This document shows positions 42,892-56,443 of a DNA stretch of 64,000 nt, piece after piece. The DNA is taken from NCBI GenBank assembly GCA_025916675.1, contig CP098402.1:925205-989204 (forward strand). The letters run 5' to 3'. Both the position numbers and the translations under genes were made by a program. Under the pieces are notes generated by a model. It was not told the origin of the DNA. It ran no database searches and saw only the letters and a program-made list of their open reading frames with translations. The stretch comes from Phycisphaera sp. GTDB lineage: Bacteria; Planctomycetota; Phycisphaerae; Phycisphaerales; UBA1924. Within the stretch, counting starts at the first letter, position 1; each line of letters opens with the position of its first letter.

Positions 42892-43287
42892 ATGACTGAG
42901 ATCAGCGAGAACACCTTTCGGGCCGCGGTCGATCACGAGACGGCCCAGAGCGTCTCTCAGATGCTGGCGGATACCGAGACGCTTGACGACGTCTGGCACC
43001 TGTACGGCCTCACGCAGGGTGCTTCGGCGACGGGTGAAGATCCCGTTGACACAGGCAAGCGGACATTTGTGCGAAGGCTGCAAGAGCTACGAGCGATCTT
43101 CTGCGCGAACCCGAGCATCCGTGCGATCGTTCATAATCCGGCCCTCGACAAGGAGATTGACCTAGCGACCGTGCTGGCCGGCGTGCTCCTCCACCAGCAG
43201 TATCCTGGCACCCAGGTCGCAGTGATCGCCGTTTTGGTCGCGAAGATCGGAGTCATCCGCCTCTGCTCTGAGACCTACATGCCTTGA
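42892..43287 (+). CDS. Small helical partner of the HEXXH metalloprotease
   Basis: 131 aa from ATG 42892; alternative GTG/ATG at 42850 and 42853, with no strong Shine-Dalgarno at either. It ends with a hydrophobic helix (ATVLAGVLLHQQYPGTQVAV, then IAVLVAKIGVIRLC), a tail style seen in small effector-associated proteins of bacterial conflict systems. Family not firmly recognised. Its TGA overlaps the TTG start of the protease gene, so the two are made together. Confidence 0.6.
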   Translation: MTEISENTFRAAVDHETAQSVSQMLADTETLDDVWHLYGLTQGASATGEDPVDTGKRTFVRRLQELRAIFCANPSIRAIVHNPALDKEIDLATVLAGVLLHQQYPGTQVAVIAVLVAKIGVIRLCSETYMP

Positions 43288-44585
43288 GCGAGCGAACAAC
43301 GGCAAGCTACTTGCTGTCGGTATGGCGACGTATCGCTCCGGATGCGGATCGTTCGCTGGCGATCCACGCCGCAAACGAGTTCTACAAGCGCGAGATCCAT
43401 GACCCGGAGTCGCTCCAGCGACTCGTCGATGCTTTGGGCCGGGCACTCTCTGAGATTCACACGGACTTTGCCCAAGCGTTCGACTACTCCTGGATAATCG
43501 AACCGCACCCAGACCTCTACCATCCAGCGGCGGAGTCTCTGTACCAGTTGCATGTCATCGACTGTGCGGCCACGCTCTGGGACGCGTGTCCGCCCGAGAA
43601 TCGTGAGTCGGAAGCGTTCAGCGACTTGATGGCTCGCTATTCGCGCCTCTGGGGCGGAGTCGGCAGCACGTCGCCGAAGGCCAGAAATGAGGATGGCGTG
43701 CGATTCGTGATTGTCCCGTTCGGCTGGGACCAGCACCTCCACATCGCCCTCGACGGACTAATGGCGTTCTCGCCCTCTTTGATGCCCGAAGACGTGGTTG
43801 TGGTCCGATCAGTCGCCGATCCAGCATTCTCGCCCGAAGATGCGATCCCGTCATGGAATGCCCTCCTCGCGAGGGCCCTCGCGACCGAACTCGGTTGCCA
43901 TGAGCTCTTGACCCCGCTCTGTGTACAGAGATTCGTTGCAGAGGTACCACAGCTCCAGCGTGCGAGTTCCATGCGAAATCGTGTTGATGTTATCGATGTC
44001 CAGTTGTCGAGGTGTTCGCTTGCGATGCTATTCTCGATCGCGCACGAGGTCGGGCATCATCTGAGCGAGGTGTTTCCATCGCTTGAAGGAGAGGACACCG
44101 AGGTGCATGCCGATCGGCTTGCGATGAACGCTCTCTGGGGCTGCCCCGGATCCGCAAGGAGCTTGAAGGGCACCGACGAACCCGACGATACGCTCACGTT
44201 GCTTTCCGGAGGATTGTTCTTTGCTGCCGTTGAGATTGGTGTTACAGCAGAACACGCTGTCCGCTGCTATGTCAACCAGGCGAACACACGTTCCGCATCA
44301 CTGGGAGAGCGGATGACGGCTTGGGTCACGACGATCGAGCAGATTGTGCTCGGCCACCCGGAGTTGCGGTATGCGGCCGACGCTGCGTATGCGATTTATT
44401 CGGCGTCTCGCACCTACAGCGAGGAGTTTGCTCAGTATTTGCTTTCGGTGCTGGGCGATGTGCTTCCGATCGCTCGTGAGATCGTGGATGAGCTGCACAA
44501 GGACAACCCAGATTTGCACGATATCCCGTTGCTCGAGCGCAGGCTCATCGCGGAGGAGGACGAATCCACTTCTCATTTGATGTAG
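43284..44585 (+). CDS. HEXXH-type putative zinc metalloprotease
   Basis: 433 aa, TTG start overlapping the previous stop. Residues around 255 read LFSIAHEVGHHLSEVF, a zincin HEXXH motif, followed by EDTEVHADRLAMNALW about 15 residues later, which supplies a Glu ligand as in gluzincin-like peptidases. No signal peptide, so it acts in the cytoplasm. The N-terminal 200 residues are an unrecognised helical domain. With its small partner it resembles two-gene conflict or defence units; that is inference. Confidence 0.7.
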   Translation: MSERTTASYLLSVWRRIAPDADRSLAIHAANEFYKREIHDPESLQRLVDALGRALSEIHTDFAQAFDYSWIIEPHPDLYHPAAESLYQLHVIDCAATLWDACPPENRESEAFSDLMARYSRLWGGVGSTSPKARNEDGVRFVIVPFGWDQHLHIALDGLMAFSPSLMPEDVVVVRSVADPAFSPEDAIPSWNALLARALATELGCHELLTPLCVQRFVAEVPQLQRASSMRNRVDVIDVQLSRCSLAMLFSIAHEVGHHLSEVFPSLEGEDTEVHADRLAMNALWGCPGSARSLKGTDEPDDTLTLLSGGLFFAAVEIGVTAEHAVRCYVNQANTRSASLGERMTAWVTTIEQIVLGHPELRYAADAAYAIYSASRTYSEEFAQYLLSVLGDVLPIAREIVDELHKDNPDLHDIPLLERRLIAEEDESTSHLM

Positions 44586-45909: not shown

Positions 45910-47025
45910 TCAGTGATCGTGTTTCGGGTCATCCCACCCTGCGGGTACATCCCGATCGGGACCGAACAGCGTGTCGAGGGCGTCCGTCGCGTCCTTGAGG
46001 AAAGCGACGTGGTGCTTGCCATAGAACTCGGTGGTCCGCTGCTCGGAGTGCCCCAGCATGCCCGCGACCTGGCGGATCGGCACGCCGATGGCCAGCATGA
46101 GCGTCGCACCGGTATGACGGAGCGTGTACGGGCTGACGTCCTCGAGCCCCGCCGCCTTGCACGCCGCGGCGAATGACCGTCTGACGTGTGTTACTGGCCG
46201 CCCGAGGTATTCGATCACGTGCCCGGTGTAGGAGTCAGCGATCGCCTCCTCCAGCACGGGCCGCAGCGTCCGCGTGATCGGGACCACGGGCCGGTGCTTG
46301 CGAGTCTGGAGCCCGCCGGTCGCGAGGAAATCGATCCTGTTGCTCTCGAAGTCGATCTGGTTGGCGTGCAGCGTAAGGATCGCCCCGGGCCGCTGGAGCG
46401 TGTGCAACGCGACCATGACGAACCGCAAGAGGTGGTCCTTCTCGCACGCCCCGATCAGGCGGTCGACCTGCCCCGGGAAGAGGAAGTGCTGCCTCGGCGG
46501 TGGCTCGATCACGGATTGGACGTACGGCGGATGGGTGAGCAGCCCCTCCCGCCAGGCGTCGTTCAGTGCGGCCCGCATCACGCGGAGCTCGCGGGACAGG
46601 GTGCCGTTGGAGGCCGCGTACCCCCGGGACCGCAGGTCGCGTCGCCGCCACTCGATGTAGCGATCCTGGGCCGCACGGGTGAGCTCGGCCACCGAGGCGA
46701 TGTCGTGGCTCGTGAGGAAGGCCGTCCAGTGCTTGAGGGCCGTTGCTTCGGCGGTCCCCCGACGCTTGCCGCGGTTCGTGCGTTTGACGTAGGACGTGAG
46801 CAGCCCGATCAGGTCGAGCCGCTCGGGTGGCGTCGGCCCGAGCGAGATCCGGGCCCGGGTGAACTCGACCAGTCGTTCCTTGGCCAGGTCGAGGTCGTTC
46901 GTCTTGGTGCTCCGCCTATGCCACTTGCGTGACCCCGGCCGGCACCAGGTGATGTAGAGGCTCTTGGAGTCCGGTCGCTTGACCAGCTTGTGGCCCTGGT
47001 ACTCCCAGACGGGCTCGTAGAACAT
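45910..47025 (-). CDS. Tyrosine recombinase / integrase
   Basis: 371 aa, starting behind AGGAAA. An N-terminal SAM-like core-binding region (TAEATALKHWTAFLTSHDIA) precedes the catalytic domain with Arg (TLQRPGAILTL), LRHTGATLML (Arg and the His box), MLGHSEQRTTEF (second His) and Tyr in FYGKHH. It integrates and excises a mobile element; the half tRNA-Thr with flanking repeats beyond its 3' end is the likely att site. Confidence 0.9.
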   Translation of the reverse strand: MFYEPVWEYQGHKLVKRPDSKSLYITWCRPGSRKWHRRSTKTNDLDLAKERLVEFTRARISLGPTPPERLDLIGLLTSYVKRTNRGKRRGTAEATALKHWTAFLTSHDIASVAELTRAAQDRYIEWRRRDLRSRGYAASNGTLSRELRVMRAALNDAWREGLLTHPPYVQSVIEPPPRQHFLFPGQVDRLIGACEKDHLLRFVMVALHTLQRPGAILTLHANQIDFESNRIDFLATGGLQTRKHRPVVPITRTLRPVLEEAIADSYTGHVIEYLGRPVTHVRRSFAAACKAAGLEDVSPYTLRHTGATLMLAIGVPIRQVAGMLGHSEQRTTEFYGKHHVAFLKDATDALDTLFGPDRDVPAGWDDPKHDH

Positions 47026-48647: not shown

Positions 48648-49055
48648 GGGATCATAATAATAGGCCAATACCCCCTATTTAGGGGGGATATGGAATCAGG
48701 TTACATGCGATAGCACACCGAACTCGATTGGCGGCTCGATCGTGTGGATTCGGAATGCCATCTATGGAAAAGAGGCCCCTCGGGCTCAGCCCGTCCGGCA
48801 GGTGGCGGTCAGGCTCCGCGATCGACGGGGTGATCGAATGGGGATGAGACACTCGATGCCGCCTGCGCGTGATCGCATCGGGGCCCACGCGGGGGTGAGG
48901 CCCCGACGGCGATCCCGCTCCGGCAGTTCCGACAACTAGAACACATGACTACAAACCACCGGTCAAGTATTTTCAGAAGCAAGGCAATGCCCAAACGGTT
49001 TGCAGTTGTGGGAGAGTAGAATTGCCTCTGCCCACTTTTGATTGTTCTGTGCGCA
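48648..49055. other. Intergenic region before queD
   Basis: 408 bp between the minus-strand HARE-HTH gene and the plus-strand queD. It holds the palindrome at 48671-48686 and otherwise only short frames with no family signal. No clear promoter was identified for queD. Confidence 0.4.
48671..48686. promoter_or_regulatory. 16-bp palindrome upstream of the HARE-HTH gene
   Basis: CCCCCTATTTAGGGGG, the exact reverse complement of the site at 35569. It is 24 bp ahead of the start at 48647, a position suited to an operator. Confidence 0.5.
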
Positions 49056-49439
49056 ATGTCCGATACGTTAACGATGCTGGAAGTCTTCCGCGAGTTCCAT
49101 TTCGACGCCGCCCACAGGCTCGAGAACCTGCCCGAGGGGCACAAGTGCGCCCGCGTGCATGGGCACACGTATCGGCTGACGGTGTACGTGGCGGGCGAGG
49201 TCGACCCCGTCATGGGCTGGATCGTGGACTTCGCCGACCTAAAGCGGATCACCCAGGGCGTCGTCGGCCAGCTCGATCACCGGATGCTGAACGACGTACC
49301 CGGGCTGGAGCAGCCAACGACCGAAAGCGTCATCGTGTGGATCTGGGACCGTCTCAAGCCGGACCTGCCGCACCTAAGTCGGCTTCGGTTGTGGGAGAAT
49401 GCGACTTCAGGGTGCGAGTATACCGGTCGATTACGCTAA
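49056..49439 (+). CDS. queD: QueD-family 6-carboxytetrahydropterin synthase
   Basis: 127 aa. The signature residues of the PTPS/QueD family are all present: zinc ligands in FDAAHRL and HGHTY, the catalytic Cys in HKCARVHGHTY, the DFADLK and LDHRMLND segments, PTTESVIVWIW and the Glu in RLWENATSG. QueD makes 6-carboxy-tetrahydropterin, the second step toward preQ0, the precursor of queuosine and of 7-deazaguanine DNA bases. QueC, QueE and FolE are not in the window and would have to come from elsewhere. Its 3' end overlaps that of the convergent nuclease gene by 4 bp. Next to a DpdA-type gene it suggests a DNA-modification role. Confidence 0.88.
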   Translation: MSDTLTMLEVFREFHFDAAHRLENLPEGHKCARVHGHTYRLTVYVAGEVDPVMGWIVDFADLKRITQGVVGQLDHRMLNDVPGLEQPTTESVIVWIWDRLKPDLPHLSRLRLWENATSGCEYTGRLR

Positions 49440-50446
49440 TTAGTTCGGACGTTGGTACGGTCTATATCACGTTCCTCGCCGTGCAAGTGCGCACGGTAAG
49501 AAGGGCAATCAAATCGCTGCCCACACCCTAGGCACTGTTTCGCAAGCTCCTTGTCGACTCGCTTCGCCAGAGGGAGACTTTGCTTTCGTGCGTCGCCACC
49601 TTCTAAACTCTGAGGATCGGCCTCAAAGGCCAGCATAGTCGAACGAACTGCGCGAGCTTGGGCAAGCGTCCAATCATGGGCACGGCGCACCAATGCCTCA
49701 GTGATTTCAATCGCCAACAACTGTCTGGATGGCTTTGGCTCGTTGACAAAGAAAATGACACAGCGTTTTGGAAGGGTCCCGGCGCGTTCAGCGTAGAGGC
49801 CAGCATATGTCAAGAGCTGAAGAACAAATGCTTCCGAATATTGGGATGCAGCCCGGCTACCCTTATAATCCCAGACCTCGAGGTCGCCCGGCGCAGCCCT
49901 TACGGTGCGTTCTTCAGCATGTCCGCTGAAAGCATTCAGATCAGTCCACTTCCAGGTGTTATCGTAGGTGAGCGGCTGTTGCTGCTGAACAACAAGGTCA
50001 AGTACGCCGGTTAGCAGCATCTTGGTCTTTCCAGCGAAGTCAGCTGCTACTAGTTTTCTGATCGCCCTAAGCTCATACTCCGTATGTTGAGCCCCTTCAA
50101 TTGCGGCTTTAACGGTAGCATGGATCTGTCCGCTTGGATAGATGTTCGACAGTGCACGGCCGACAATCGTGTCCTTGCTAGCAAAGGCTGTTCTGATGCC
50201 ACGAGCCCACAGCACTCTAAAGTGTCGACGCAATTGCGCATCGAGCTCAGTTGCAGTAGCGTGACGTCCCTCAGTGTCATAGAACGCAGCAAGCCACTCC
50301 ATGGCATGATGAACTAGTCTTCCCTCCATCGCCTGAGACTGCTCATACGGATGAAATCCTGCGTATTTCTCATAAGCCCATGACCGGGGGCAACGTCGAT
50401 GAGCCAGTAAATCTCCGGTGTACGAGATCTGGAGTACTTCATTCAT
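49436..50446 (-). CDS. PD-(D/E)XK nuclease of the RecB/Cas4 type with Cys cluster
   Basis: 336 aa. The start ATG overlaps the helicase stop by 8 bp and has AAGGAG upstream. Layout: Cys in HRRCPRSWAYEKY, His in GRLVHHAMEWL, Asp in LLTGVLDLVV, the PD-(D/E)XK core LEVWDYKGSRAASQYSEAFV with QLLTYAGLYAE, and a C-terminal cluster CLGCGQRFDCPSY. One N-terminal plus three C-terminal Cys is the iron-sulphur arrangement of AddB, Cas4 and related nucleases. It is translated with the helicase, so the two probably act as a helicase-nuclease pair. Confidence 0.8.
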   Translation of the reverse strand: MNEVLQISYTGDLLAHRRCPRSWAYEKYAGFHPYEQSQAMEGRLVHHAMEWLAAFYDTEGRHATATELDAQLRRHFRVLWARGIRTAFASKDTIVGRALSNIYPSGQIHATVKAAIEGAQHTEYELRAIRKLVAADFAGKTKMLLTGVLDLVVQQQQPLTYDNTWKWTDLNAFSGHAEERTVRAAPGDLEVWDYKGSRAASQYSEAFVLQLLTYAGLYAERAGTLPKRCVIFFVNEPKPSRQLLAIEITEALVRRAHDWTLAQARAVRSTMLAFEADPQSLEGGDARKQSLPLAKRVDKELAKQCLGCGQRFDCPSYRAHLHGEERDIDRTNVRTN

Positions 50447-52886
50447 TCGAGTACTCCTTAACGATGATCTTTGGAAAATCTGGGTAGCGAACACCCTGTA
50501 GACCAGAAAATAATCGGTGAATGGCAGGATGCAGCTTGCCGTCCCTCTCGCTTGCGGGGTCCAGAAGAATCGTAAGCTGTCGTTTGGCCCTCGTGATTGC
50601 CACGTACACCTCGCGATCACGATCAGCCTCCGCAAGATCAAGTGTCGCCTGCGTTGTCGTCATGGCGTGCCCGTCAATGACTGTGAAGGGCTGTACCCTT
50701 CCGCTAAAAACCTCGGTTCTGAGGACGGGCCCTACGTCAACATCACGCCCCGTCGCAGCGACATAGACCGAATCCCATTCTAATCCCTTAGCTTGGTGAA
50801 ATGTAAGCAGCGGAAGTGAACCGTCCTCAAAGGCTTCTACCTCCGGGTCATCAAGGGTCGTATTTTTCAAGATTGCGCCGAACGTGCCCAGGAAATTCCA
50901 ATACTGACCCGGCCAAAGATACTTGCCATGCTGAAGCTTGAGGTCGATGGCGCCATCAAGTGGCGATCTTGTCCGCCTAGTAGGTGCTGTGTAGTCCTCT
51001 AATAACTGCGTAAAGAGCGCCTGACGGAACAAATCAATGGTAAACCCGCTGGCACGGAAAAAAGGCAGAGTCAGCAGTCGTGACACGAGGCTGTGAAGCG
51101 AGAGCCGAGCCTTTGAACCTTGCGCAATCAAATTGTTCCGTATGCTATCGACGTAATCAAGTACCGCTTGTCGATCTGGCGGCGTAGGTCCGATGCCGGC
51201 GCCGCCATTATTACGAAATTTTTTCTGATAATCCTGATGACCATTTGCAATGGGAAAAGGTGGAGGCGCAGACAAGGCGTGAGTGGCGTGTCCGGAGTTG
51301 TCGTGGGACGCCCATACCATCACGGACCTCCCATCTTTTCCTGCCGGTGCCTTGGTAATCGGGTCAATCAAGTACGACAAGATACCAAAGAGCATGCCAA
51401 AAGGGCTATCTGGTTGACCAGCGACCTTGCTGCGCGGATTGTAGAGGCGCAAACCACGGTTGTTAATAGCGTCCCGTATCATGGATGCGGGGCGAGGGTT
51501 ATCTGACGACCCAAGTTCGCTCGTGCTAAACATGAGCATTGCGGCACTTCCGCATAAATGGCCGTTATCATCAGCAAGTGCAACTGCCTCACTTGCTACT
51601 ACGGCCGCCAATTCGGGCCATGGGCCGGTGAGCAGGCGTACTGGTGCTCCCTTTGGCGCGGACGTTTCCGCGACAATGGTCTTCGAGAGTGATAACGCGC
51701 CTAGTTTGGCCGAGTTACGATACTGCTCGCTAAAGTCAACTATGGTGGCGCTGCTACGATAATTGGTTTGGAGCTTCTCCTGTCGAAATGGTACATTCCG
51801 GGCTCTACAGTGCGGCTCAAGGTCTTGAAAGCAAGAAAGATCAGAGCCTCGAAAACGGTAAACAGCTTGGTCGTCATCGCCAACGACAGTGAGTAGAGTC
51901 GATGGACTTTGAAGCCATCCAGTATGGATGGCAAATTGGATGGGATTGTTGTCTTGAAACTCGTCGACAAATACGTGTGTGAAGTGAGGAGCAAGTGAAG
52001 CCTGTCGTTCTAGGAACCGTTTCTGAATGGTGGGAAAGTCTAGAACATCCTGTTGGTCGAGATATTGTTCCCATCGCTTCTGCAATTGTGATAGATCGTG
52101 CGTCAACCCATTAGGACCGGCGGTCTGCTCGACTCCGTTCAATGAACCAGTAGTCGAACAGCGTGGAATCCAAGTTTCGGTGTGTTGAGCTAGTAGTTCT
52201 TGCAGAAACCTAGCCTTCTGAATCGTTTGTGCTGGCCATTGCTTCGGCGACAGGTAATGCGGGCGGAATAGCGAGAGCAAGGGTTCCGAAGCAATGAGGC
52301 GGTCGCACACACGAGGTGGGCCTTTCCCTCCGCTGAAGCCGAGACTGTGTCGGTGGTCTTTGATCAAGCGAGACTTTGTTTCAAGGTCGGTCATCAACTC
52401 AGTGCCAGAGGCCATGTAAGCCGCGTCATACTCTGCGAGCAAACGATGACACAGGCTGTGCAATGTGCCAATCTGTAAGTCGTGTACTCTTGGATCGGCT
52501 GCCGGAATTGACTTCGCGTGAGCATGCTTTAAAAGTTGATCACATCGTTCAACGAGCCGAACCTGGAGTTCGGTAGCTGCCCGCTTCGTGAAGGTTGTGA
52601 CTAAGAGCGTGTTTGCAGGAGTGCCGCGAACAAAAAGGTCGTACAGCACACGCCAAGCCAGCATCTCCGTTTTTCCCGATCCAGGGCCCGCCAGTATTTG
52701 CAGTACGCGGTCGTCCTCGTCAATGTGAATGATGCGACGTTGAGGTGAATCATCGGGAAGCGGAGTGCGACCGGCTTCGACTAGCACGGAATCAAGCAGC
52801 GAGAAGAAGTTGGAGCGTGACACAGTGTTCTTTGCACTGTGGTGCATCGGCGACGTAGCGGTTGTTGATGTTAAAGGTATAGTCAT
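50439..52886 (-). CDS. UvrD/Rep-family superfamily 1 helicase
   Basis: 815 aa; ATG at 52886 overlaps the DpdA stop (ATGA). SF1A motifs: I (ILAGPGSGKTEMLAWRV), Ia (LVTTFTKRAATEL), II (VFVDEFQDNN), III (VVGDDDQAVYRFRG), IV (LQTNYRSSATIVDFS), V (LLTFHQAKGLEWDSVYVAAT), VI (YVAITRAKRQLTILLD). It has no fused nuclease; that function is supplied by the next gene. Base composition is visibly more AT-rich than the flanks, which points to horizontal acquisition. Confidence 0.9.
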   Translation of the reverse strand: MTIPLTSTTATSPMHHSAKNTVSRSNFFSLLDSVLVEAGRTPLPDDSPQRRIIHIDEDDRVLQILAGPGSGKTEMLAWRVLYDLFVRGTPANTLLVTTFTKRAATELQVRLVERCDQLLKHAHAKSIPAADPRVHDLQIGTLHSLCHRLLAEYDAAYMASGTELMTDLETKSRLIKDHRHSLGFSGGKGPPRVCDRLIASEPLLSLFRPHYLSPKQWPAQTIQKARFLQELLAQHTETWIPRCSTTGSLNGVEQTAGPNGLTHDLSQLQKRWEQYLDQQDVLDFPTIQKRFLERQASLAPHFTHVFVDEFQDNNPIQFAIHTGWLQSPSTLLTVVGDDDQAVYRFRGSDLSCFQDLEPHCRARNVPFRQEKLQTNYRSSATIVDFSEQYRNSAKLGALSLSKTIVAETSAPKGAPVRLLTGPWPELAAVVASEAVALADDNGHLCGSAAMLMFSTSELGSSDNPRPASMIRDAINNRGLRLYNPRSKVAGQPDSPFGMLFGILSYLIDPITKAPAGKDGRSVMVWASHDNSGHATHALSAPPPFPIANGHQDYQKKFRNNGGAGIGPTPPDRQAVLDYVDSIRNNLIAQGSKARLSLHSLVSRLLTLPFFRASGFTIDLFRQALFTQLLEDYTAPTRRTRSPLDGAIDLKLQHGKYLWPGQYWNFLGTFGAILKNTTLDDPEVEAFEDGSLPLLTFHQAKGLEWDSVYVAATGRDVDVGPVLRTEVFSGRVQPFTVIDGHAMTTTQATLDLAEADRDREVYVAITRAKRQLTILLDPASERDGKLHPAIHRLFSGLQGVRYPDFPKIIVKEYSNE

Positions 52887-54616
52887 GGTCGGCAGGAGCA
52901 GATAGCAATGTTCTGATAGAGGGCAAATGTATTGTGCGCTCCTCGCCGCTTGTTCCGGTTCAGCCCCCGGAACACCAGCCCATGGACGCCAATGTCTGTG
53001 CAAACGCCGCAGTTGCACATCTCCCACGGCCGTGCCAAGAGGGTCTTGCGATACGCTGGCTCCATTGAGCCAGCCGAGTATTCCCCCCTTGACAACAGCT
53101 CGTCGTACTCCAGCACGGCGTCAAGGCACTTGTCCACACCGACCCGCCGCGATTGGTACTGCTTCAGGGCCGTGAGTGCCCGTTTCTCCAGCCGGCGGAC
53201 CTCGTCCATCGGCACGCCCGACGCTTCGAGGCGCTTGGCGGTCCGTGGATCGTGCGAGGGCGGTACGCGGATAGCGGCGTACCAGTTGCCATCGGCACCC
53301 ATGTAGTTCTGATCCGAGCGAAGCCAAGCCTTACGGAAGTACGTCGCGCTATCGAAGCTGTTGACGTTGCACTCGCGGAACGTGGCTTGGAGCTTGGGTC
53401 GGTAGATGCCCATGAGGTGCCACCAAGGTGGATCGCGCAGTTCTCCCATCTTCTTGGCGACAGCTTTGACCACGGCCTCGATCTCCGCATCCGACTTTGG
53501 CACCAGCCCACCAAGGGCGACGCGGCGGTATCCCATCTCGGCATACTCGGCCACCGTTTCGGCGTATCCGCGAGGCGAGAGTGCTTGGACAATGCCAACG
53601 GGATGGAAGCGGCACTCTCGCACGCGCCACGCGGCGAGGAATGCCTCGGCGTTCTCTTTGGTGATCCGGACGCGGCGGCGGCGTTGGCTCTCGCTCAGCT
53701 CGACGCGTTTGCCGTCTCGCATGATGAACGGCACGGGGATGTGGTCCACGCTTGCTCCGAGGTCGAAGCCGTAGAGCTCGTAGGTGGCCACGGCCCGCTC
53801 GACGGACATGGTCGGGTTGTCCTCATTGACATAGCTGAAGGCCCCGCAATCGCCGAACGCCCACTGGTCCTCGGCCAAGCCGAAGTGCTCGCGGACCTGC
53901 TTGGGCGAGAGCGTCTCGGCCGAATCGGGTTCGAGCGCACGAAGAATGCCTTTCGTGCCGAAGCTCTGTGCGAGGCTGACAAGGATGCCATCGGCAAGGC
54001 GGTGGGGGGCGACGAGTTGCGAGCAGTGGACCTCGTTGCGCTCCGCTCGGTTCTTCGTGGAGAACTCGTCTCGGTTGAAGTCGAACTCCGCATCGACGAA
54101 GTCGTCCCAGTCTGGAAGGAAGTAGGCCGGGCGGCCCGGATAGCTTGGCGAGTCAACAGTACGGGGACCTGTTTCGATGGCCGAGGTCCGAAGCGTCTTG
54201 CTCAAGTAGCTGAGCTTCATGCCGATGGGACCTTCGGCGACCTGCACGGTCTTGACGTTAGGCCAGAGGCGATCCACGGACGGACGGATGGCACCCATGT
54301 AATTCTTGCCGAGGACCAGCTCGATACGGCCGTGCTCGGGCTGCCATTGGGTTAGCGTCTTACCGACGCCTTGGCTCAACTGAGTAGCCCGAGCACGTGT
54401 CATTCGATTGTCGTAGGTCTCGATCGGCGTGAGCCCGCCTATGAGCCCGTGCTCGGCTGACAGCACGGCGACCGACAAGTCCTTGGGCCAAGCGTGCGTC
54501 CGCAGGAACGAACGCATCACGCGATACATCGGCCCGTCATACAAGTCGATCGCCGGCAGCTTCCCGCCGGTCTCACGCTTGGTCGCCGAGCATCCGAGCA
54601 CCACGAGTCGCCGCAC
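52883..54616 (-). CDS. dpdA: DpdA-type tRNA-guanine-transglycosylase-like protein with N-terminal DUF6884 domain
   Basis: 577 aa from GTG 54616, which has GGAGG 6 nt upstream; a weaker GTG at 54676 adds 20 residues. N-terminus (1-150): DUF6884-like (LVVLGCSATKRETGGKLPAI, VAVLSAEHGLIGGLTPIETY). C-terminal 400 residues: TGT fold with FGDCGAFSYVNEDNPTMSVE (position of the TGT DSGGF loop), FDLGASVDHIPVPFIM, YRRVALGGLVPKS, WWHLMGIYRP and the TGT zinc site CNCGVC...H. DpdA enzymes insert 7-deazaguanine bases into DNA. It is coupled to the UvrD-like gene. I consider the DpdA call good; a tRNA substrate is less likely given helicase and nuclease partners. Confidence 0.82.
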   Translation of the reverse strand: MRRLVVLGCSATKRETGGKLPAIDLYDGPMYRVMRSFLRTHAWPKDLSVAVLSAEHGLIGGLTPIETYDNRMTRARATQLSQGVGKTLTQWQPEHGRIELVLGKNYMGAIRPSVDRLWPNVKTVQVAEGPIGMKLSYLSKTLRTSAIETGPRTVDSPSYPGRPAYFLPDWDDFVDAEFDFNRDEFSTKNRAERNEVHCSQLVAPHRLADGILVSLAQSFGTKGILRALEPDSAETLSPKQVREHFGLAEDQWAFGDCGAFSYVNEDNPTMSVERAVATYELYGFDLGASVDHIPVPFIMRDGKRVELSESQRRRRVRITKENAEAFLAAWRVRECRFHPVGIVQALSPRGYAETVAEYAEMGYRRVALGGLVPKSDAEIEAVVKAVAKKMGELRDPPWWHLMGIYRPKLQATFRECNVNSFDSATYFRKAWLRSDQNYMGADGNWYAAIRVPPSHDPRTAKRLEASGVPMDEVRRLEKRALTALKQYQSRRVGVDKCLDAVLEYDELLSRGEYSAGSMEPAYRKTLLARPWEMCNCGVCTDIGVHGLVFRGLNRNKRRGAHNTFALYQNIAICSCRP

Positions 54617-54685
54617 GTTGGGCCTCCGTTGCGGTCGGATACAGTGTACCTTGCAATAGCGTTTCCACTGCGCCACAATGTTGTA

Positions 54686-54701
54686 CCCCCCATTTGGGGG
54701 G
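54686..54701. promoter_or_regulatory. 16-bp palindrome upstream of the dpdA operon
   Basis: CCCCCCATTTGGGGGG, a variant of the sites at 35569 and 48671. It lies 70 bp ahead of the dpdA start and between dpdA and the gene at 54710. Confidence 0.5.
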
Positions 54702-54709
54702 GCAACCGT

Positions 54710-55663
54710 TCACTTCTCGAATATTGCCAACACGTCCATAGCTGGCCCAGACTTTAGCGTGCCCACGAGACGGATGCCATGCTTGTACCCGCGTCGGATG
54801 AACTGGTAAGCGAACGTGCCCGTGTCGTACGAACCATCCGGGACGACATGGATGTGGAGCGTGTTGCCATCGGCATCGAGCGGGAGCCTGTAGTCGATCC
54901 ACTGGATCCTACCAAGTTTGGTTGAGGCCGATTCAACGACTTCAATGGCGTCAATCTCGGAAAAGTGCTCGGCATAGAATGCCCAGTACTCTTTCTCGAG
55001 GCCGCGACGCTTTTTCACGTCTTGCTCTCGCTCAGGGTACTTCGGCGGAGTCAGCTTGCCTAGCCGCTTGAGGAGGTCGAGGTAGAGAAGCTGCATGCTT
55101 CCATCGGCAAATTCCGCAGCTGTCGGGATGAGCATCAGTGGGAACGAATTGGTGAGCAAACCTCCAAAATCAAGAAAGACCAGTTGCTTTGGGGAGGCGG
55201 CGAGCAGTTCTGATTCGTGGGTCGCGATCGAGTGTGGTGACTGCGGCGCGAGCAATCGGTGGTTGTGCTCTGCAAAGTAGACCAACGCGATCTGAGCCAG
55301 CTTGCGTTCGGGAGTCGAGATCGGCTGCAACTCGATGGTCTGCGCCTTTGCACGGGTAACTTTGGCTGTCGCGTCCGCATGGGCCTTGACTTCGCCTTCA
55401 CCTTCCCCGATGCGAAGGAGTTTCAGCAAACTCCCGAACCCTAACTTGACGCGGCCCTCAAGACCACCGGTCGCGCTGCCTTCCAAACCTCGCTCGATCG
55501 TGACCTTGCGCCCAACTTCCGTGTTCGCCGGTCGCACGATGGCCTCGTAGAGCCGGTCGATAGCTTTGCGATCGATGAACAGCGGCGCGTCTTGGAGCCA
55601 GGCCAGATTGCCGGTCTCGTCAACAAGTTGGGAATCTTCGGTTGGATTCGGCCTTTTTGCCAT
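54710..55663 (-). CDS. Unrecognised protein upstream of dpdA
   Basis: 317 aa from ATG 55663; a GTG at 55708 would add 15 residues. It reads like one folded cytoplasmic protein (PLFIDRKAIDRLYEAIVRPA; QLVFLDFGGLLTNSFPLMLI; GYKHGIRLVGTLKSGPAMDV). The N-terminal part recalls DUF6414-type proteins, but weakly. It lies 93 bp upstream of dpdA in the same direction, so it may belong to the same functional unit. Confidence 0.6.
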   Translation of the reverse strand: MAKRPNPTEDSQLVDETGNLAWLQDAPLFIDRKAIDRLYEAIVRPANTEVGRKVTIERGLEGSATGGLEGRVKLGFGSLLKLLRIGEGEGEVKAHADATAKVTRAKAQTIELQPISTPERKLAQIALVYFAEHNHRLLAPQSPHSIATHESELLAASPKQLVFLDFGGLLTNSFPLMLIPTAAEFADGSMQLLYLDLLKRLGKLTPPKYPEREQDVKKRRGLEKEYWAFYAEHFSEIDAIEVVESASTKLGRIQWIDYRLPLDADGNTLHIHVVPDGSYDTGTFAYQFIRRGYKHGIRLVGTLKSGPAMDVLAIFEK

Positions 55664-55747
55664 TGCCGAGTGTAGGCCGAACAAGCAATCTTTGCGTGCG
55701 TCAACCACCCTACCCTGTGATGTTAGCCGAACGCCGCTCGCGAACTG

Positions 55748-56443
55748 TCAGCAGAGCAATCTCCAGTTGGGATCAAAGGCGACTCTGGCGTCGGCATCGG
55801 TGGTGTACTTTGCTGCTGTCCATCGGACTTCCGGCAGCGTGTACTGCCCCGGATCGTCGAACGGCAGGAACGGCAACTGGCACGACAGCAGCGTCATGCC
55901 ATGGTCGGCGGTGCTGAACGTGTGGACGACGCTGCGGGTGAACGCGAACACATCGCGTTCGCGGGCGGGGATAGTGCGGACGTGGTTTCCCGTAAAAGCA
56001 TGTAGTGGCTCATCGGTCACATGGAAGTAGCCACGGCCCTCCAGCACGATGATGAACCGGTCCGAGTGCTCGTGGGCATGCATGGGCAGATCGCGGGCGT
56101 TGGCCTTCCAGTGCAGCTTGGCGAGGGCGTCGCGTCGGTCGGGATGGACGAGCTCATTGCCACGCCAGACGGCCCCGCCGACGTGGTCGCTGCCCTCGAA
56201 CGGGAACCGGAGCTCGATGGGGTGGTCAGCCTCCAGTTGGGCTACGAGGCGAGAAAATGAGACGCCCCGGCCGGTGCCTCGAACGCGGCCGAGGGCGGCG
56301 CAAGGTCCGTCGGAGTGTGCCCCAAGATCTTCCAGGACTTCTTGTGCCGCGTCCAGAAGGGCTTCGAGAATACCGATGCCCCGTGGTTGGCCCGGACGCT
56401 CTGGGTTGAGTTGGATCGGGTCGAGTTCGATGGCGTGCCGCAT
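55748..56443 (-). CDS. Cupin-domain protein
   Basis: 231 aa, start behind GGAGGAA. The C-terminal cupin has its metal-binding pattern in MHAHEHSDRFIIVLEGRGYF and RSVVHTFSTADHGM. The N-terminal 100 residues are unrecognised. It is divergent from the XRE regulator gene at 56524, with direct repeats in the shared 80-bp gap. Confidence 0.75.
   Translation of the reverse strand: MRHAIELDPIQLNPERPGQPRGIGILEALLDAAQEVLEDLGAHSDGPCAALGRVRGTGRGVSFSRLVAQLEADHPIELRFPFEGSDHVGGAVWRGNELVHPDRRDALAKLHWKANARDLPMHAHEHSDRFIIVLEGRGYFHVTDEPLHAFTGNHVRTIPARERDVFAFTRSVVHTFSTADHGMTLLSCQLPFLPFDDPGQYTLPEVRWTAAKYTTDADARVAFDPNWRLLC

Follow-up and report, generated by a model that had tools for sequence, protein, structure and literature searches.

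A dpdA gene joined to an apparently exchangeable helicase–nuclease pair in a Phycisphaera cassette: a candidate minimal Dpd-type DNA modification–restriction system

A 64,000-nucleotide stretch of a Phycisphaera sp. genome (contig CP098402.1, positions 925,205 to 989,204; hereafter the window) contains a predicted DNA transglycosylase gene, dpdA, followed on the same strand by genes for a UvrD-type helicase and a PD-(D/E)XK nuclease, with queD on one side of these three genes and an accessory gene on the other. We propose that this five-gene cassette is probably a minimal Dpd-type system that would mark DNA with a 7-deazaguanine and restrict DNA lacking the mark. Its parts are as follows, in window coordinates.

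48930..55749, no strand: whole cassette, 6,820 bp
49056..49439, + strand: queD, 6-carboxytetrahydropterin synthase for preQ0 supply; PTPS 127.6 bits, TIGR03367 104.7 bits (cut-off 89.25); convergent with the nuclease gene
49436..50446, - strand (ATG 50446, stop 49436): RecB/Cas4-like PD-(D/E)XK nuclease; PDDEXK_1 55.6 bits (cut-off 22); C...CxxCx5C cluster
50439..52886, - strand (ATG 52886, stop 50439): UvrD/GajB-like superfamily 1 helicase; UvrD-helicase 136.8 bits (cut-off 23)
52883..54676, - strand: dpdA, encoding a DUF6884 domain (probably DpdC-like) fused to a DpdA transglycosylase; GTG start at 54676, or start at 54616, where the DpdA of locus L053 begins
54200..54604, - strand: DUF6884 domain of the dpdA product (amino acids 25-159); Pfam DUF6884 45.2 bits (cut-off 30)
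52907..54124, - strand: DpdA domain of the dpdA product (amino acids 185-590); equivalog NF041059 339.7 bits (cut-off 200)
54710..55663, - strand (ATG 55663, stop 54710): gene for a 317-amino-acid (317-aa) accessory protein, directly upstream of dpdA; no known family

The genes are tightly packed: dpdA and the helicase gene overlap in an ATGA, the helicase and nuclease genes by 8 bp, and the nuclease gene and the convergent queD by 4 bp. Rechecking of the coordinates placed all five genes and their overlaps where a preliminary description, made from the sequence alone, had put them, and the families it had assigned are borne out by QueD, PD-(D/E)XK, UvrD, DUF6884 and DpdA models, all above curated cut-offs. 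The 317-aa product, which it could not recognise, matched no family in Pfam, PADLOC, NCBIfam or PHROGs under the thresholds applied and had no relative among the plasmids searched; its AlphaFold model is poor (pLDDT 42.6). The lower G+C that had been ascribed to the helicase gene also holds (0.53 at third positions), but the nuclease gene is equally low (0.51) against 0.68 in the 317-aa gene, 0.78 in dpdA and 0.82 in queD, so the shift marks the helicase–nuclease pair and not the helicase alone.

The arrangement of dpdA, helicase and nuclease recurs elsewhere. With DpdA alone as the search key, 7 of 392 genomes of the phylum scored above the DpdA cut-off, and four of these seven, the window's included, align from the DUF6884 domain onward. 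The alignment of the four as query returned seven loci in genome contigs (84,980 species) and one in viral contigs; two of the seven repeat survey genomes (L057 is the L026 genome and L059 the L025 genome, at 99.8–100% identity, each counted once), and the distinct window-type loci number ten: the window, L027 and L053–L060. At all ten, dpdA is followed by the UvrD gene and then the PD-(D/E)XK gene on the same strand, and because the three genes recur in this order at every distinct locus, the arrangement is beyond chance. The carriers are Planctomycetota together with contigs labelled Desulfobacterales and Thermoanaerobaculia; one locus, L056, sits on a 21-kb contig of a metagenome-assembled genome that may be mis-binned. 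The outer genes are less constant: queD adjoins the triplet at 4 of the 10 loci, a count that may miss it on contig L054 (6.6 kb), which stops at the nuclease gene, and on L058, which has little upstream, and the 317-aa gene is present at three; its homologue immediately precedes dpdA in L055 and follows the nuclease gene in L058. Among 17 other DpdA loci (three genome loci plus 14 of the best 17 standard-type plasmid matches, H8, H9 and H16 being left out), four have the helicase–nuclease pair; the plasmid matches come to 78 records in all, 38 of them outside those listed.

Two further kinds of gene lie near window-type loci. Between the nuclease gene and queD of the G183 locus (L059:14862-15752) stands an Nmad3 gene (nucleotide modification associated domain 3, 42 bits), possibly for a further modifying step. 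A large homologous gene lies within 10 kb of three of the ten loci (L027:4381-7701, L059:18511-21702, L060:15644-18487), probably for a type IIG restriction-methylation enzyme, which three flank open reading frames (ORFs) matched.

The other genes of known Dpd systems were sought by tblastn in the window and the nine other loci. Neither dpdB nor dpdD–K (Enterobacter queries) and dpdJ–K (Paenibacillus queries) gave any match there, and the same holds for queC and queE; in control loci, with same-locus queries left out, dpdB was found in six of eight and the dpdD–K and dpdJ–K set in five of eight. Five of the eight control loci had themselves supplied queries; with those queries left out, seven remained positive and L029 yielded nothing. 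The absence of Dpd genes rests on tblastn because the PADLOC and Pfam scans of flank ORFs (98/123 ORFs) listed the top 25 families only, out of 238 and 56 respectively. A DpdB encoded elsewhere in the host genome was also considered and rejected, the DGQHR model reaching only 27 bits (cut-off 58.85) in a distant 508-aa protein. That no dpdB was visible to the preliminary description thus agrees with both searches.

By profile and by predicted structure, the transglycosylase is of the DNA-modifying DpdA type and not a tRNA enzyme. A profile of the ten window-type DpdAs matches the solved DpdA 7ui4 at E 8.8e-88, as against 2.2e-4 for an archaeal tRNA-guanine transglycosylase (TGT). The predicted DpdA model, of moderate quality (pLDDT 68.1), aligns with 7ui4 at Z 19.1 (root-mean-square deviation 6.3 Å over 382 residues, 30% identity), with tRNA TGTs ranking behind at Z 16.6 or less, and the TGT Pfam model gives the dpdA product 19.8 bits, under its cut-off of 26.3. 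Residues D276 and D442, which from TGT homology we take to be catalytic, and C554, C556, C559 and H581 (CxCxxC...H), presumably zinc ligands, are invariant in all ten DpdA domains. The fused form was not met over 80% of its length in any of the 78 matching plasmid records or of six phage records. Both the grouping with 7ui4, apart from tRNA TGTs, and the recurrence of the triplet support the reading of the locus as a variant modification/defence system, which the preliminary description had made dependent on these two points.

Other DpdA loci show variations of their own. A second, shorter TGT-like gene stands beside the long DpdAs of two cyanobacteria and one Paenibacillus (L051:6159-7082, L072:15167-16114, L073:14245-15168) and may encode a DpdA partner subunit. 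In L028 (1364-3658, genome G203), a canonical-type DpdA opens a 764-aa frame, apparently with a C-terminal extension of about 350 residues.

The N-terminal DUF6884 domain of the dpdA product is probably DpdC-like, which would make the gene a DpdC–DpdA fusion. DUF6884 has been described as distantly related to YaaA (PF03883) and marked by the motifs CxxxK and LSAxxG (PMC11701544), DpdC has been described as DUF328/PF03883 (PMC12839542), and a GATOR-GC survey lists DUF6884 with the gloss 'e.g., dpdC' (PMC11888242). In all ten window-type DpdAs, C29 and K33 of CxxxK and LSA at 72-74 are invariant; the G of LSAxxG is not. HHalign pairs these ten N-termini with seven DpdCs (two PADLOC-confirmed, five assigned by position) at 86% probability (E 5e-6), and five other fused N-termini, four cyanobacterial and one from Paenibacillus, at 97.7% (E 1.5e-12), as against 0.8% for an unrelated nuclease as control; two cyanobacterial fused N-termini also match DpdC models at 4e-11 and 1.4e-7. 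The DUF6884 part has no row in the fold lists of the predicted DpdA model, and its fold is unconfirmed by structure. A separate dpdC gave no tblastn match in the window and nine loci, although this is a weak test for dpdC (controls 39-218 bits). The earlier remark that no dpdC is visible therefore stands for a separate gene but not for the domain, which is probably present in fused form.

An apparent two-gene counterpart of the fusion is seen in L030 (G324), where DUF6884 and DpdA similarity fall in two frames of 251 and 430 aa on the same strand. Relatives of the Enterobacter DpdC occur in 2,912 of 72,556 plasmids, 2,490 of them conjugative and most enterobacterial, with a single match spanning 80% of the protein in just 10 records.

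The precursor for such a mark appears to be available in the host, judged from its gene content. The genome encodes QueC (240.7 bits), overlapped by a QueE-like radical-SAM gene that retains CxxxCxxC and falls under the model cut-off (TIGR04508 47.6 bits, cut-off 240), and FolE2 (303.9 bits), with no FolE-I found in the genome. Three PTPS-family genes are present, the cassette's queD being the best match.

In all 16 loci compared, the helicase gene and the nuclease gene are neighbours on the same strand. The nuclease keeps H46, D150, D193, K195, Q210 and Y214, together with C19, C305, C308 and C314, in 16 of 16, residues that we take, from motif knowledge, to form a RecB-type site and a Cys cluster. 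Walker A and DExQD motifs of the helicase are likewise invariant in 16 of 16 and its C-terminal motifs in 15 of 15 (Halobaculum, whose gene is split, being left out). In PADLOC the helicase matches RTasHel (115.8 bits) and GajB (103.3 bits), and in a separate search UvrD, PcrA, AddA and AdnB-type chains; the nuclease profile finds no PDB entry at 0.01, and two with E 0.22 and 2.

Phylogeny supports the view that this pair is a module exchanged as a unit beside a conserved dpdA. The DpdAs of L025 and L026 are 70% identical (clade support 100/100), with helicases only 27% and nucleases 25% identical, and an L025+L026 clade is rejected by both effector data sets in the approximately unbiased (AU) test (p 6.9e-60 and 1.2e-39; the tested groups were named after inspection of identity tables), the two genes having moved in concert. 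A similar contrast holds between the window and L053, with DpdA 66% identical (99/100), the helicase 30% over 349 residues and the nuclease 24% over 291. The window's pair looks to have been acquired separately, within an already mobile cassette, and such replacement agrees with the lower third-position G+C of the pair than of dpdA and queD.

One effector clade unites L025, a Scytonema Dpd locus, Halobaculum and a Nostoc DISARM operon. For a related nuclease, that of L055 in effector clade I, relatives occur in 4 of 72,556 plasmid records, and within 10 kb of each lies a transglycosylase gene: dpdA in three, and in Halobaculum a DpdA-like TGT with queC, queD, queE and folE. The window nuclease has no relative in viral contigs and one among plasmids (Halobaculum); in the 392 phylum genomes it has four matches, namely itself, G183 and two weak ones. 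The helicase search of viral sequences gave 14 weak matches only (24–38% identity). Since clades of one family adjoin 7-deazaguanine systems as well as methylation systems, the effector may be blind to the mark's own chemistry. In Scytonema and Nostoc, however, the pair has further restriction genes as neighbours and could be a supplement to them.

The cassette appears to be mobile. Tyrosine recombinase genes flank it on both sides:

45910..47025, - strand: tyrosine recombinase on one side of the cassette (possible carrier element); Phage_integrase 65.3 bits
57391..58521, - strand: tyrosine recombinase on the other side; Phage_integrase 69.2 bits

In a genome of the same genus (G003, contig C108), homologues of window positions 48929 and 55750 lie only 40 bp apart, against 6,820 bp in the window; the flanks, aligned by blastn, are 76-77% identical. 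This interval holds all five genes whole, with both recombinase genes outside it. On these two genomes alone, the window may have gained the interval or G003 may have lost it; rarity favours gain, for among 101 genomes DpdA turned up in the window's own and in none of its 100 relatives. No convincing direct repeats bound the cassette. On the same G003 contig (L100), some 7.7 kb of different DNA around the equivalent of window 57 kb suggests a cargo hotspot.

These observations lead us to a reading that we consider probable, although well short of assured: a minimal Dpd-type modification–restriction cassette with a swappable effector. Host FolE2, the QueE-like enzyme and QueC, with the cassette's extra QueD, would make preQ0, which the DpdA domain is expected to exchange for guanine in DNA; the fused DUF6884 domain, to judge by its family, would then turn preQ0 into 7-amido-7-deazaguanine. 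We propose that the helicase and Cys-cluster nuclease act as a translocating degrader that is halted by the mark and destroys unmarked DNA, and that the pair is a plug-in, replaceable as a unit with no change to the modification gene. The 317-aa protein might be a facultative component that confers specificity or stands in for DpdB.

Several points weigh against this reading. DpdB, the DGQHR/ParB-like ATPase thought to aid insertion in canonical Dpd systems, went undetected in the window and nine loci, and 13 of the 17 other DpdA loci (L030 being only 4.3 kb) have no helicase–nuclease pair. The link to DpdC is uneven: the window's own DUF6884 resembles DpdC weakly (PADLOC E 0.0058, HHalign 86%), the canonical Enterobacter DpdC (PADLOC DpdC 470 bits) matches DUF6884 under the cut-off at E 6.2e-5, and that of Bradyrhizobium (213 bits) matches no Pfam family. 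Other DUF6884 proteins may instead bind DNA lesions (PMC11701544). Effector exchange is also less certain for the window and L053 than for L025 and L026, with AU p of 0.028 for the helicase and 0.107 for the nuclease and long branches, and the pattern there may reflect fast divergence instead of exchange.

More tentatively, and with the balance of our own judgement on the other side, the cassette could represent a separate class, in which a single DpdC–DpdA chain does the writing with no need of DpdB, and the reading falls to a swappable helicase–nuclease cassette with relatives that also serve methylation-based DISARM. If so, the effector could not recognise the chemistry of the mark directly and would have to detect missing modification by some common cue, for instance unhindered translocation or the presence of free DNA ends.

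An alternative that we consider unlikely has the helicase and nuclease serve modification, opening or repairing DNA for base exchange by DpdC–DpdA in DpdB's place, with no restriction. It would account for the lack of detectable DpdB at ten of ten loci and for the helicase gene lying directly downstream of dpdA at each; clades of the pair, however, also adjoin dpdB operons (L047, L052) and DISARM (L048), where DpdB or a methyltransferase is already at hand for marking, and the RecB-type site is kept in all 16. It is quite improbable, too, that dpdA and queD camouflage a mobile element while the helicase and nuclease are an unrelated defence that clusters with them: the cassette does have integrase genes on both sides and an empty site in a same-genus genome, and the L060 contig is classed as viral, but the same order with overlapping or closely spaced genes is kept at all ten loci, whose contigs carry the labels of three phyla. 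We give very little weight to the inverse logic, with DpdA marking incoming or replicating foreign DNA and the helicase–nuclease attacking what is marked; modification-dependent restriction that recognises 7-deazaguanine DNA does exist (GrwAB; PMC12137116), yet marking and attack in one cell would need strict targeting, no targeting factor was seen, and the Dpd logic described is self-protection (PMC12839542, PMC11888242). That the transglycosylase acts on tRNA is scarcely credible and was rejected, since despite the TGT fold and zinc-site pattern that both share it is far closer to 7ui4, and the genome already has its own, distinct tRNA TGT (451.6 bits).

Set beside known systems, the proposed modification–restriction cassette is Dpd-like in its predicted working but not a canonical Dpd system, because no DpdB and no dpdD–K were found. 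With the Dpd system (dpdA-K), for example that of Salmonella Montevideo, it has in common DpdA, a domain probably related to DpdC, an adjoining queD and a mobile island; it differs in the fusion of the DpdC-like domain to DpdA, in the want of a detectable dpdB, and in having one UvrD helicase and one PD-(D/E)XK nuclease in place of dpdD-K. Plasmid dpd operons of Bradyrhizobium 41S5 (L052) and Rhizobium WYJ-E13 (L047) carry the same helicase–nuclease family beside dpdA but have a separate dpdC, keep dpdB and place queE, queD and queC alongside. The Dpd locus of Scytonema NIES-4073 (L045) resembles the cassette in its DUF6884–DpdA fusion and UvrD–nuclease pair and differs in its additional dpdB, dpdJ-like and dpdK-like genes and SNF2-type helicase. 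In the DISARM locus of Nostoc N6 (L048), a UvrD–nuclease pair (72% identity for the helicase and 67% for the nuclease with those of the Scytonema Dpd locus) stands instead with annotated drmA, drmC, DUF1998 and DNA methyltransferase genes, with no DpdA within the stretch searched.

Nor does the cassette fit Gabija or, it appears, BRIGADE as these are described. BRIGADE likewise combines predicted 7-deazaguanine genes with PLD or sometimes PD-(D/E)xK nucleases but has YprA-family SF2 (superfamily 2) helicases and has been reported only in halophilic archaea (PMC12458937), whereas the cassette's single helicase is of the UvrD type and tblastn (no YprA model was used) found no dpdJ-like match in the window. 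Gabija shares a UvrD-family helicase, GajB, but its nuclease, GajA, is a TOPRIM protein (PMC10952713) and the cassette's belongs to PDDEXK_1. Cas4 has a RecB-type site and Cys cluster in common with the cassette nuclease, but its equivalog TIGR00372 gives only 14.9 bits (cut-off 65). AddAB and AdnAB also have a UvrD-family helicase; AddAB nucleases are fused to helicase chains, unlike the separate nuclease gene here.

No description of dpdA with a UvrD/PD-(D/E)XK pair was found in the open-access literature searched, which excluded the primary Dpd papers. The GATOR-GC survey demanded dpdA and dpdB together and would therefore miss the window type by design; the eight phyla that it gives for dpd islands exclude Planctomycetota (PMC11888242). 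What we add is the reading of dpdA as a probable DpdC–DpdA fusion and the exchange of helicase and nuclease as a pair beside a conserved dpdA. Canonical Dpd restriction takes as many as eight genes (dpdD–K), and it is difficult to work out what each contributes; a version with three to five genes would be the simplest setting for asking how 7-deazaguanine marks protect DNA. Effector exchange beside a constant modification gene, together with sharing of the effector with DISARM, makes the question of mark recognition testable.

Some alphaproteobacterial plasmids (L052, L074, L080-L082, L084) have a common dpdB-dpdA-dpdB-queE-queD core, with queC in five of the six, next to helicase and nuclease genes that differ.

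Two minor features of the window complete the description. An inverted repeat immediately precedes dpdA:

54686..54702, no strand: C6/G7 inverted repeat directly before the dpdA start; RNA fold z only -1.67

Perfect C5-6/G5-7 inverted repeats occur at window 35569, 41662, 48671 and 54686 (five matches, two of them overlapping, against 0.93 expected), one of them being that before dpdA and another lying some 260 bp beyond the cassette's left edge. At window 43284-44585, a 433-aa protein with an HExxH motif weakly matches peptidase_U41.

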